DNA from: Allorhizobium pseudoryzae
GTDB lineage: Bacteria; Pseudomonadota; Alphaproteobacteria; Rhizobiales; Rhizobiaceae
Direction: 5' to 3'
DNA: 64,000 nucleotides
Assembly: GCF_011046245.1 (NCBI RefSeq)
Contig: NZ_CP049241.1
Coordinates: forward strand, 2,310,001 to 2,374,000
This document shows positions 6,966 through 9,554 of the stretch, piece by piece; the first letter of the stretch is position 1, and every line of letters starts with the position of its first letter. A program made the position numbers and the translations under genes. The notes beneath the pieces were generated by a model. It searched no databases and was not told where the DNA came from. It saw only the letters and a list, made by a program, of their open reading frames with translations.

Positions 6966-7005
6966 AGTTCTCGATTTCACCGAGAGGTTGTGCTTTGATG
7001 CGGAT

Positions 7006-7275
7006 ATGGAATTCGAGTTCGATCCGGCAAAGAACGCTGCAAACCAGGAAAAGCATGGGATCGACTTTGTCGAAGCCCAGGCGTTGTGGTACGATGATTT
7101 TCGTATTGATGCCGAAGCGAACCATGATCTGGAGTTGAGACGGATCACCATTGGCCGTATTGGCGAAAAATTTTGGACCGGTATCTATACGATGCGCGGG
7201 GATGTCGTCCGGATCATATCGGTGAGGCACGCCAGACCGGCGGAAAGGCTTCGTTATGCAGAAAATAACCGCTGA
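7006..7275 (+). CDS. brnT: BrnT-family ribonuclease toxin
   Basis: 89-residue type II toxin of the BrnT family (RelE/barnase-like fold RNase that cleaves mRNA). Typical blocks are FDPAKNAANQEKHGIDF at the N terminus, W-x-D-F in the middle and the C-terminal IISVRHARPAERLRYAENN. The start at 7006 gives MEFEFDPAKN, the usual family N terminus; a TTG six codons upstream is less likely. It overlaps the brnA antitoxin start by 20 bp, the usual toxin-first order for BrnTA, which implies translational coupling and autorepression of the pair by BrnA. It lies just downstream of the BenE-type gene, on the same strand. Confidence 0.9.
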   Translation: MEFEFDPAKNAANQEKHGIDFVEAQALWYDDFRIDAEANHDLELRRITIGRIGEKFWTGIYTMRGDVVRIISVRHARPAERLRYAENNR

Positions 7276-7504
7276 GGAATTTGACCGGAAGTTCGATAAT
7301 GGCGAGGATATCAGCGCCTATGTCGACTGGAGCAAGGCCACTCGACCCAATCTGGAACCGGTGGAGATGACCGTTGTCGTGAAGCGTGGAACACTGCTGC
7401 GATTGGATAGGCGTGCCAAGGAGCTTGGGCTTTCGCGCGACTCTCTTTTGGAAAGCTGGCTGACGGAAAAGCTGGAAGACCAGCGGAAAGATGCCGCCGA
7501 ATAA
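7256..7504 (+). CDS. brnA: BrnA-family antitoxin
   Basis: 82-residue partner of BrnT. It has a short acidic N-terminal region that would bind the toxin and a C-terminal ribbon-helix-helix-like segment (KRGTLLRLDRRAKELGLSRDSLLES) expected to bind DNA as a dimer and repress the pair. The ATG at 7256 overlaps the end of brnT by 20 bp. No other mobile-element remnant touches the pair. It ends 40 bp before the leuA leader peptide and only 5 bp before the proposed leuA promoter. Confidence 0.88.
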   Translation: MQKITAEEFDRKFDNGEDISAYVDWSKATRPNLEPVEMTVVVKRGTLLRLDRRAKELGLSRDSLLESWLTEKLEDQRKDAAE

Positions 7505-7509
7505 CCTGC

Positions 7510-7537
7510 TTGCACTCTCTTCAGTCCCGCGTTATCA
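7510..7537 (+). promoter_or_regulatory. Proposed sigma-70 promoter of the leuA leader
   Basis: -35 ttgcac (7510-7515), 16-bp spacer, -10 ttatca (7532-7537). The predicted transcription start falls at about 7544-7545, on the A of the leader peptide ATG. That would make the peptide leaderless, as described for the trp leader peptide of Sinorhizobium meliloti. Confidence 0.5.
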
Positions 7538-7544
7538 CATCTCC

Positions 7545-7670
7545 ATGACGATCAACGGCACATCCATAGCTGCGACGAAGATAACGGACCGCCCCGCGGT
7601 CGGTTTCGTCGCGTCGGTGCCAAACTCGCTTCTTCTCCTCGGCCTTATCCGCGGTTGCCGGGTCCTTTGA
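7545..7670 (+). CDS. leuL: Leucine-rich leader peptide of leuA (41 aa)
   Basis: A 41-codon ORF whose codons 29-34 read Leu-Leu-Leu-Leu-Gly-Leu (7629-7646), with another Leu as the last sense codon before TGA at 7668-7670. No SD precedes the ATG, which fits a leaderless mRNA starting at the ATG from the promoter just upstream. The stop codon lies inside two mutually exclusive hairpins (7657-7682 and 7669-7713). The ORF sits 159 bp upstream of leuA on the same strand. This is the textbook layout of ribosome-mediated attenuation: with scarce Leu-tRNA, ribosomes would stall at codons 29-34 and change the downstream fold. Attenuation of leuA is known in proteobacteria; this specific peptide is read from the sequence and its function is inferred. 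Confidence 0.72.
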   Translation: MTINGTSIAATKITDRPAVGFVASVPNSLLLLGLIRGCRVL

Positions 7671-7713
7671 GGAGCGCCCGGCGGCCGATCAAGCCTGCCG
7701 GCATCAGCTCCTC
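7657..7713 (+). promoter_or_regulatory. Attenuator-like alternative hairpins upstream of leuA
   Basis: Hairpin A pairs gccggg (7657-7662) with cccggc (7677-7682), with an inner tcct/agga stem. Hairpin B pairs gaggagc (7669-7675) with gctcctc (7707-7713), with an inner ccggc/gccgg stem (7678-7682/7697-7701). They share 7669-7682 and cannot form together. Neither has an obvious U tract, so the output may be Rho-dependent or translational and not a classic intrinsic terminator. Confidence 0.55.
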
Positions 7714-7829
7714 GCACAAAATCCCCGTTTGAAGACCAAAAGCCTCACCTGAGGCCTTGATCCACCGTTATGGCGCTGTCACAGGCTTTTGCCACAAGCG
7801 CCGACGCTGGACGCGAAGGAGAAGAGACC

Positions 7830-9554
7830 ATGGACGCCAACCATTCCGCCACAGCTGTGACCGCTTCCGGCAAAAAGGGCATGCCCGATGCCGCCCGCAA
7901 ATATCGTGCTTACCCCACCATCAACATTCCGGATCGCACCTGGCCGTCGAAGGTGATCGACAAGGCGCCGATCTGGTGCTCGGTGGACTTGCGCGACGGC
8001 AACCAGTCGCTGGTCAATCCGATGGGCCATGACCGCAAGGCGCGCATGTTCAAGCTGTTGCTCGACATGGGCTTCAAGGAAATCGAGATCGGTTTCCCGT
8101 CAGCCTCGCAGACCGATTTCGATTTTGCCCGCTGGTGCGTGGAAGAGGGTGGTGTGCCGCAGGATGTCTCCCTGCAGGTGCTGGTGCAGTGCCGTCCCGA
8201 ACTGATTACGCGGACCTTCGAGGCGCTGGAAGGTGCGCACCAGCCGATCATCCACTTCTACAACTCGACCTCGGAGCTGCAGCGCCGGGTGGTGTTTGCG
8301 AAGGATGTGCCCGGCATCAAGCAGATCGCCGTCGATGCGGCCAAGATGATCATGGACATGTCCCAGAAGGCCGGCGGCGGGTACCGCTTCGAATATTCGC
8401 CGGAAAGCTTTACCGGCACGGAACTTGAGGTGGCGCTGGAGGTCTGCAACGCCGTCATCGCCGAAGTGAAGCCGACGGCGGAGAACAAGCTGATCCTCAA
8501 CCTGCCGTCCACCGTCGAAATGGCGACGCCGAACATCTATGCCGACCAGATCGAGTGGATGTGCCGCAACATCGACAACCGCGACAACGTCATCATCTCG
8601 CTGCATCCGCACAACGACCGGGGCACCGGCATTGCCGCGACCGAACTCGGCCTGATGGCCGGTGCCGACCGCGTCGAAGGCACCTTGTTCGGCAATGGCG
8701 AGCGCACCGGCAATGTCGATGTGGTGACGCTGGCGCTCAACATGTTCACGCAAGGCGTTGATCCGGAACTGGATTGCACCGACATCGAGCGCATCAAGGC
8801 GGTCTATGAATATTCCAACGAGATGACGATCCCCGAGCGTCATCCGTATGTTGGCGAACTGGTCTACACGGCGTTTTCCGGCTCGCACCAGGATGCGATC
8901 AACAAGGGCATGAAGGCGATCAAGTCGGCCAATTCGCCGGTCTGGGAAGTGCCCTACCTGCCGATCGACCCGCAGGATGTCGGGCGCACCTACGAGGCGA
9001 TCATCCGCATCAATTCGCAGTCCGGCAAGGGCGGTATCGCCTATATCCTGCAGCAGGATCATGGCATCAACCTGCCGCGCAACCTGCAGGTGGAATTCCG
9101 CGAAGACATCCAGCGCATTACGGATGAGGAAGGCAAGGAACTGCCCTCCAAGCGGATCTACGAGCGCTTCATCGAGCGCTACGTGGAGCAGCCGGAAGGC
9201 CGCATCAAGTTCGTCGATCACCACACCTATCCGGCCGGCATGGACCAGAAGGGCATCCGCGTGGTCGCGGCCGAGATCACCGACAAGGGCGAGACGAAGC
9301 GGATCGAGGGCAAGGGTACCGGCCCGATCGACGGTTTCATCAACGCGCTGTCGATCTATCTCGGGGTGGAGCTGTCGGTCGCCGATTATTCCGAACATTC
9401 GCTGCAGCACGGCTCGAACGCGTCTGCCATTGCCTATGTGGAAGTCGAGCATGCCGGCGGAAAGCTGTTCGGCGTCGGCATCAACAAGAACATCGTGGCC
9501 GCCTCGCTGGAGGCCATCGTTTCTGCGGCAAATCAGGTGATCGCTGGAAAGTAA
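7830..9554 (+). CDS. leuA: 2-isopropylmalate synthase (LeuA type 2)
   Basis: Catalyses the first committed step of leucine biosynthesis, condensing acetyl-CoA with 2-ketoisovalerate. 574 aa, the length of the longer type-2 enzymes. The TIM-barrel catalytic domain carries the metal-binding start WCSVDLRDGNQSL and the HPHNDRGTG His pair; the C-terminal LeuA dimer/regulatory domain (leucine feedback) includes the GKGTGPIDGFINAL region. Start at ATG 7830 is chosen for the clear aaggag at 7817-7822; in-frame ATGs upstream lack an SD. It is preceded by a leucine-rich leader peptide and competing hairpins and followed by a strong intrinsic terminator, so it is probably monocistronic and controlled by leucine at both enzyme and transcript level. 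Confidence 0.95.
   Translation: MDANHSATAVTASGKKGMPDAARKYRAYPTINIPDRTWPSKVIDKAPIWCSVDLRDGNQSLVNPMGHDRKARMFKLLLDMGFKEIEIGFPSASQTDFDFARWCVEEGGVPQDVSLQVLVQCRPELITRTFEALEGAHQPIIHFYNSTSELQRRVVFAKDVPGIKQIAVDAAKMIMDMSQKAGGGYRFEYSPESFTGTELEVALEVCNAVIAEVKPTAENKLILNLPSTVEMATPNIYADQIEWMCRNIDNRDNVIISLHPHNDRGTGIAATELGLMAGADRVEGTLFGNGERTGNVDVVTLALNMFTQGVDPELDCTDIERIKAVYEYSNEMTIPERHPYVGELVYTAFSGSHQDAINKGMKAIKSANSPVWEVPYLPIDPQDVGRTYEAIIRINSQSGKGGIAYILQQDHGINLPRNLQVEFREDIQRITDEEGKELPSKRIYERFIERYVEQPEGRIKFVDHHTYPAGMDQKGIRVVAAEITDKGETKRIEGKGTGPIDGFINALSIYLGVELSVADYSEHSLQHGSNASAIAYVEVEHAGGKLFGVGINKNIVAASLEAIVSAANQVIAGK

Follow-up and report, generated by a model that had tools for sequence, protein, structure and literature searches.

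The stretch of DNA analysed here (hereafter the window), 64,000 nucleotides from the 5.4 Mb genome of Allorhizobium pseudoryzae, carries the gene leuA and, in front of it, a short open reading frame (ORF) with a cluster of leucine codons and a segment predicted to fold into either of two hairpins. The leuA product is a 2-isopropylmalate synthase of the long (leuA_yeast) type, scoring 759.7 bits with the model TIGR00970 (cut-off 697.4). The start of leuA was set at 7830 by its Shine–Dalgarno (SD)-like sequence; an alternative in-frame ATG lies further 5′, at 7770. The features of the region are:

7510–7515, + strand: −35-like hexamer, TTGCAC
7533–7538, + strand: −10-like hexamer, TATCAC, its final base 7 nt 5′ of the ATG
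7545–7670, + strand: leader ORF of 41 codons, probably leaderless, from ATG at 7545 to TGA at 7668–7670
7629–7640, + strand: four consecutive Leu codons, CTT CTT CTC CTC, kept as Leu among relatives
7644–7647, + strand: final Leu codon CTT and the following base A (CTTA), in 75/75 rows of the family alignment
7652–7663, + strand: hairpin 1, 5′ arm, within the leader ORF (fold, covariation)
7676–7687, + strand: hairpin 1, 3′ arm (fold, covariation)
7668–7675, + strand: hairpin 2, outer 5′ arm, starting at the leader stop codon (fold, covariation)
7707–7714, + strand: hairpin 2, outer 3′ arm (fold, covariation)
7678–7685, + strand: hairpin 2, inner 5′ arm, overlapping the 3′ arm of hairpin 1 (fold, covariation)
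7693–7701, + strand: hairpin 2, inner 3′ arm (fold, covariation)
7715–7739, + strand: G-poor linker without a U tract (composition across 78 loci)
7742–7755, + strand: small third hairpin, GCCTC/GAGGC (fold)
7816–7821, + strand: SD-like sequence of leuA, AAGGAG
7830–9554, + strand: leuA, long type (TIGR00970)

Upstream, a gene for a BrnA-type antitoxin (7256–7504) ends 40 nt 5′ of the leader ORF and is preceded by an ORF (6988–7275) that has no NCBIfam match and presumably resembles BrnT. The gene tables of Sinorhizobium meliloti and Rhizobium leguminosarum (one record each, with incomplete tables) list no gene between leuA and its upstream neighbour. DNA resembling the window is found in plasmid records of Sinorhizobium, Shinella and Rhizobium. 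The S. meliloti record CP090106.1 (3.7 Mb), which carries leuA, is labelled plasmid pSymB, and its size looks chromosomal; we take SMc02717 to be the locus tag of S. meliloti leuA. Rfam 15 gives no match above its gathering threshold in the window, and at a relaxed threshold only a chance-level tRNA-Sec match on the opposite strand.

To follow the element among relatives, we used the regions upstream of leuA from 90 genomes, 87 of the same family and 3 of other families (L088–L090). A single-sequence nhmmer search with 7540–7760 located the element in 84 of these regions, missing L079, L083, L087 and the three from other families; by eye, a related leader is present in L079, L083, L087 and L089, and L088 has a leader with a different hairpin. 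Nine of the 84 loci, identical to others over 110 nt, were dropped, which left an alignment of 75 distinct sequences, with the anchor shifted by one codon in L082 and L084. A leuA start could be placed in 81 of the 84 loci, SD accessibility was computed in 72 and the composition of the tail in 78.

The leader ORF ends approximately 160 nt 5′ of leuA, and its codons 29–34 read LLLLGL, with Leu at codons 29–32 and 34, so the original prediction of a 41-codon ORF bearing this motif is borne out in its coordinates. An in-frame ATG precedes the leader stop by 38–41 codons in 79/84 loci (range searched, 36–43). The N-terminal half of the peptide is highly variable and the final 14 codons are nearly constant. 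Among 36 distinct sequences, a tally that omits the anchorless L065, the first four positions of the run encode Leu in 27, 33, 31 and 35. The fifth and last Leu is CTT in all 75 alignment rows, a count free of the anchor that demanded CTTA and thereby made the corresponding 36/36 tally true by construction. The proposed check on conservation of the Leu codons among relatives is thus passed, most clearly at the fourth and last positions. The choice of codons is also skewed: CTT (68) and CTC (46) far outnumber CTA (7) and CTG (5) among the 126 Leu codons found at the first four positions, unlike 33 long ORFs of the window, taken mechanically, in which 48% of the 1559 Leu codons are CTG. CTT and CTC are decoded by tRNA-Leu(GAG), so the leader would mainly demand this tRNA. 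As in amino acid attenuators, the leader ORF appears to carry a run of control codons for the product of the downstream pathway.

A lone 41-codon ORF is unremarkable in high-GC DNA, and it is conceivable that this one lies by chance beside a conserved RNA of different function. The openness of its frame partly reflects how the loci were chosen: because all 84 were selected by the ORF, frame 0 is open in 83/83 by construction and carries no evidence. The other two frames, as opposed to it, are open across the leader span in only 5/83 and 21/83 loci, the Leu codons are kept, and the spacing between promoter and ATG described below favours the leader frame over both others, all of which leaves a chance ORF with hardly any credibility.

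The two promoter-like hexamers are separated by a 17-nt spacer, and they had been proposed to place the transcription start on the leader ATG. A strict promoter scan of the window reports no promoter, and the hexamers are weak, so that this part of the proposal fares poorly on the window by itself; what stands is the spacing among relatives. In 74/84 loci, an in-frame ATG lies 7–9 nt past the −10 of the best promoter-like site, as opposed to 0 and 0 loci for ATGs in the other two frames and 41/840 when the upstream sequence is shuffled. An SD-like purine stretch lies 5′ of the leader ATG in 3/79 loci and of the leuA ATG in 40/81. An SD in front of the leader had been named as an observation that would count against the prediction; it was looked for, and 76/79 loci are without one. 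A −10 at 7–9 nt and no SD are the traits of a leaderless ORF of the trpL type, and by these traits the leader ATG probably starts the transcript. For the window, this reading is supported by the conserved promoter–ATG spacing and not by its own hexamers.

Hairpins 1 and 2 have predicted energies of −26.4 kcal/mol (z −3.3) and −27.1 kcal/mol (z −3.5). They had been predicted to be mutually exclusive through 7669–7682; the paired bases common to both are 7678–7685, close to that segment, and the exclusivity holds. Across the family alignment, hairpin 1 is paired in 99.2% of cells and shows 18 double changes against a mean of 4.0 in shuffled alignments, and no control in which the arms were slid exceeds 55.3% of cells or 6 double changes; the cells here count related sequences and not independent events. 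One pair of hairpin 1 is G-C in 56 sequences and A-U in 16, and 3 of its 12 pairs are invariant. For hairpin 2, 97.0% of cells pair in the outer stem, where 4 of 7 pairs show double changes; the inner stems, paired in 87.2% and 80.9%, are less regular. Both stems therefore covary above shuffles and slid controls, the outcome that the family-wide check had been designed to look for, and the pair of exclusive, covarying hairpins expected of an attenuator is present. With no ribosome on the leader, neither fold is clearly favoured, hairpin 1 being lower in 27/72 loci. We saw no conserved upstream segment able to protect the 5′ arm of hairpin 1. The small third hairpin, at roughly the same place as one in relatives, was considered as a terminator and set aside, since no U tract was seen and the alignment is poor in that part.

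A covariance model built from the 75 sequences, searched with strict filters at E 0.01, has a single match in the A. pseudoryzae genome, with no further copies found there, and matches 88/90 genomes of the family, in 32 genera of the sample, and 0/60 genomes of other families of the order among those listed. The model misses two family genomes: in G061 leuA itself has no match, and the 1.1 Mb G062 carries a degenerate copy. Among the fetched family leuA regions, 86/87 are matched, although 75 of these sequences also built the model, and the sole miss is the degenerate copy of G062. Scores with the model are good for L079 and L083; L087, in which by eye the frame continues beyond the usual stop, scores weakly (E 0.029, no match at 0.01). 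There is one element per genome except in G008, where two copies of leuA (contigs C25 and C41) each have their own leader element. In a pattern scan of named genomes, at least 118 stretches were found, and 112 of these 118 are followed on the same strand by leuA, no more than 400 nt away; for the other 6 only 8–161 nt of downstream sequence are available. As the pattern demanded CTTA, these loci say nothing on its conservation. Rhizobiaceae and their relatives make up most of the named carriers, which include, among the matches listed, Rhizobium, Agrobacterium, Sinorhizobium, Mesorhizobium, Brucella, Ochrobactrum, Phyllobacterium, Martelella, Hoeflea, Shinella, Aureimonas, Aurantimonas and Pleomorphomonas. 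The element also occurs, together with a leuA that shares 83.7% identity with that of the window, on a contig assigned to a Dechloromonas metagenome-assembled genome (L110); this contig is probably misbinned alphaproteobacterial DNA. The covariation of both stems across the family, together with the position of the element next to leuA in relatives, lifts it above chance.

Judged on these conserved features, the element is probably a ribosome-mediated, leucine-responsive attenuator, in which starvation would favour hairpin 1 and leuA expression. The transcript would begin at or beside the leader AUG, so that translation of the leader would be leaderless. A shortage of charged leucyl-tRNA would stall the ribosome within the Leu run (7629–7646), its front edge not reaching, or only just reaching, hairpin 1, which could then form, block hairpin 2 and allow leuA to be expressed. 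When leucine is plentiful, the ribosome would continue to the stop codon (7668) at the bottom of hairpin 2, masking the 5′ arm of hairpin 1; hairpin 2 would form, and the transcript would most likely end ahead of leuA. Release at hairpin 2 without a U tract might be Rho-assisted, in the G-poor linker, as one candidate route. Sequence comparison establishes the ORF, the promoter spacing, the Leu codons, the two covarying and mutually exclusive hairpins and the lack of a U tract; from these we infer that the ribosome stalls, which way the response runs and that transcription ends at hairpin 2 or directly 3′ of it.

The layout of the leader is consistent with this geometry. The first four Leu codons end at least 11 nt 5′ of the hairpin 1 arm at 7652, and the interval from the Leu run to this arm is gap-free in the 75 alignment rows. 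Given the size of the ribosome footprint and the position of the ribosomal helicase, a stall at any of the first four codons would keep the 5′ arm of hairpin 1 free, as in attenuators whose control codons are positioned to release the antiterminator arm; with the last Leu codon in the A site, the hairpin base would lie 8 nt past the first base of the codon, approximately where the helicase starts. Because a stalled ribosome would leave this arm clear, starvation should favour hairpin 1 and deny hairpin 2, and the biosynthetic role of leuA makes hairpin 2 the expected off state. Several points count against this reading: a ribosome at the stop codon also covers the outer 5′ arm of hairpin 2 until it departs, and the stretch with both hairpins (7650–7716), when folded jointly, is not unusually stable for its composition (z −1.0) and has hairpin 1 as its best fold. 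The missing U tract, the lack of a clearly preferred fold on ribosome-free RNA and the less regular inner stems of hairpin 2 weigh on the same side. The original reading as a leucine attenuator nevertheless gains from the retained Leu codons, the two covarying stems and the missing leader SD. If it is true, leucine control of leuA joins the attenuators of rhizobia, agrobacteria, brucellae and their relatives.

The intrinsic terminator of a classical attenuator, a GC-rich hairpin with a U tract, is absent. The window has neither a U tract nor a terminator-like site on the + strand, and between the leader stop and the leuA ATG, tracts of 6 T in 7 occur in 2/81 loci and of 5 in 7 in 11/81. For comparison, 24 matches to a trp leader pattern in 60 genomes yielded 21 leaders with a stop codon and an in-frame ATG (those with WWWAR among L211–L232, the leader of A. 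pseudoryzae itself being L217). A T tract follows in 20 of these 21 same-genus leaders, own genome included, and the only one without, L216, has 5 T. Set against this ratio, the 2/81 among leuA leaders show that the U tract is missing as a conserved trait instead of through a local defect, which strengthens the earlier suggestion that it hints at an unusual output. In L085 (genome G082), GCCTCTTTTTCC at the end of hairpin 2 is a real U tract; it may be an ancestral or a regained intrinsic terminator. By its anatomy the element is an attenuator, and it would work like one; on the U tract it falls outside the intrinsic-terminator class. Across the 32 genera of the sample the hairpins are kept and the U tract is not, beside same-genus trp attenuators that have one, and the contrast between the two kinds of leader makes the mode of transcription end in them directly testable.

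How transcription would end is where two further explanations come in, both of which retain the same sensor. In the first, termination would be Rho-dependent, or hairpin pausing would act together with Rho, instead of release at hairpin 2. The 25 nt 3′ of hairpin 2 have a mean G content of 0.15 against 0.31 in controls, with C exceeding G in 72/78 loci, which along with the missing U tract counts in favour of this route, and Rho-dependent attenuation after an upstream ORF (uORF) has been inferred for an S. meliloti DUF1127 gene in the parts of that report consulted (PMC12218461). Hairpin 1, however, leaves more C-rich RNA unpaired, the wrong direction for a simple masking of a rut site. We hold this route to be a realistic option, though less likely than not.

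In the second, the output would be translational, as the original prediction had also suggested, with the switch hiding or freeing the leuA SD. The GCUCCUC arm of hairpin 2 is complementary to the SD, and the predicted accessibility of the SD does shift when hairpin 1 is forced, but with the wrong sign: the mean unpaired probability of the SD is 0.585 when hairpin 2 is in place and falls to 0.433 under hairpin 1, which cuts accessibility by more than 0.1 in 47/72 loci and raises it in 6. The distance from leader stop to leuA also ranges from 95 to 194 nt. Sequestration of the SD by the 3′ arm of hairpin 2 was rejected on its direction and on the weak co-variation of arm and SD, whose own pairing lies within the best 10% of cross pairs in 22/78 loci. 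A translational output is disfavoured by these folds and appears unlikely; with a translational off state disfavoured, we favour an output at the level of transcription, presumably by an unusual route.

E. coli leuL, trpL and hisL are ribosome-mediated attenuators of amino acid operons, and the leuA element is similar to them in having a leader rich in codons for the pathway product, two exclusive hairpins and a biosynthetic gene downstream. Unlike these, the leuA leader appears leaderless, has 41 codons and lacks a U tract after hairpin 2. Its Leu codons are mostly CUU or CUC (114/126 at the first four positions), whereas the control codons of E. coli leuL are CUA. We saw no paper on the rhizobial leuA leader among the titles and abstract openings listed by word-match searches of the open-licence literature; a 2004 study by Vitreschak et al. 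(FEMS Microbiol Lett 234:357) is a likely earlier source. A term search of the main texts of two S. meliloti sRNA surveys (PMC2873474, PMC2573895) returns neither leuA nor SMc02717, and the same kind of search of the main text of an S. meliloti small-proteome paper does not return leuA (PMC10117765). That paper, in the portions available, treats trpL as leaderless (PMC10117765). The leucine leader resembles Sinorhizobium trpL (rnTrpL, peTrpL) in its putative leaderless ORF with control codons near the end (PMC10117765, as far as seen), and differs from it in having a longer peptide and in the T tract that trp leaders keep.

Two other systems share parts of this architecture. According to the sections consulted, the Caulobacter ilv attenuator, a branched-chain leader in the same class, is described with a Rho-independent terminator and so differs in this as well as in its gene (PMC4117421). 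The S. meliloti DUF1127 system, similarly seen in part, resembles the leuA element in uORF-dependent premature termination without an intrinsic terminator, but senses the inhibition of translation and not a single amino acid, as opposed to the one amino acid that the leuA leader would sense (PMC12218461).

The actinobacterial LEU element likewise precedes leuA and combines a Leu leader ORF with a conserved RNA, and no terminator is reported for it in the part of the source seen (PMC1262725). An element of this type, in which the Leu run would pair with the leuA SD, is suggested by the window itself, where 7629–7640 can pair with 7816–7825 at −20.8 kcal/mol, a value matched by 4% of 51 control SD regions. 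Among relatives, only 26/81 loci fall within the best 10% of controls, the SD lies approximately 150 nt downstream, and it is other stems that covary. The pairing was set aside as strong in the window's own lineage and missing from most relatives, and the conserved base stem of Leu run and SD that marks the actinobacterial element is lacking, which makes a LEU-type explanation very improbable.

A feature that the original prediction had not foreseen is CUUA, the last Leu codon with its next base, invariant in 75/75 family rows. The residue following the last Leu varies, being mostly Ile, Thr or Ser, so the A appears to be kept as a base and not for the amino acid. A long LeuA is encoded in 82/289 genomes of the class at E 1e-150, own genome included, and we inspected the best 29 loci outside the family (L234–L262) together with L088–L090. 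By a criterion of 4 Leu in 6 codons near the end of a short ORF, a leader is found in 13/29 loci, with 1/29 on the reverse strand; with a CTTA anchor and at least 2 Leu in the six preceding codons, it is found in 27/32, with 2/32 on the reverse strand. Rival anchors on the same 32 loci give 12 (CTTC), 4 (CTTG), 3 (CTTT), 2 (CTCA), 1 (CTCG), 1 (CTGG) and 0 (CTGA).

The CTTA anchor was chosen after viewing the 29 loci, and a set with a short LeuA served as the test on unseen loci: 20 loci from other Hyphomicrobiales (L263–L282), with LeuA approximately 29% identical, picked by hand among 60 listed genomes of other families before their leaders were seen, the best match being assumed to be leuA. 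All 20 have a CTTA-anchored leader, as opposed to 0/20 on the reverse strand. Most of these leaders form one strong hairpin, CCCCUGAGC...GCUCAGGGG, which encloses the stop codon, and a T tract is flagged in 1/20, within the loop. A stricter, exact pattern of this other-Hyphomicrobiales element matches 5 of the 289 class genomes. Because the 20 loci fold mainly as one hairpin in single-sequence folds, the two-hairpin switch cannot be the whole story across the class.

The sequence of the hairpin differs among the groups, whereas CTTA and its spacing are constant: the base of the best stem lies 3–5 nt past CTTA in 68/69, 25/31 and 20/20 leaders, against 17–22% of shuffles, several members of the 31-leader set being near-identical or sharing a locus. 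Pairing of CUUA with the stop codon and a G was rejected by eye, as several loci break it. The invariant CUUA and its near-fixed distance to a variable hairpin hint at a rule of ribosome–hairpin geometry that the amino acid sequence does not explain. A recoding site, at which a frameshift would yield a longer leader product, could in principle account for an invariant CUUA with a GC-rich hairpin 3–5 nt downstream. In classic frameshift sites, the hairpin is farther downstream than here, and over 60 distinct loci the other frames end at scattered positions, the commonest length recurring in 8/60 and 14/60; we regard frameshifting as highly improbable.

Returning to attenuation, CUUA and its spacing raise a broader and more tentative possibility, to which we give rather less than even weight: that there is one old, Alphaproteobacteria-wide leuA leader, in which a ribosome paused at CUUA does or does not unwind the next hairpin, and termination without a U tract sets expression. 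Such a leader would apply whichever type of LeuA follows, and its only fixed parts would be the Leu-rich ORF, CUUA and a GC-rich hairpin of freely varying sequence, beginning 3–5 nt past CUUA and enclosing the stop codon. The switch would sense whether a ribosome with CUU in its A site, standing at the hairpin base, unwinds the hairpin. As read from the alignments, the features that would set the leuA element apart as a variant attenuator are its leaderless start, the kept lack of a U tract and this near-fixed CUUA–hairpin geometry. At four of the loci outside the family (L235, L239, L247 and L258), two CTTA-anchored leaders stand in tandem ahead of leuA.
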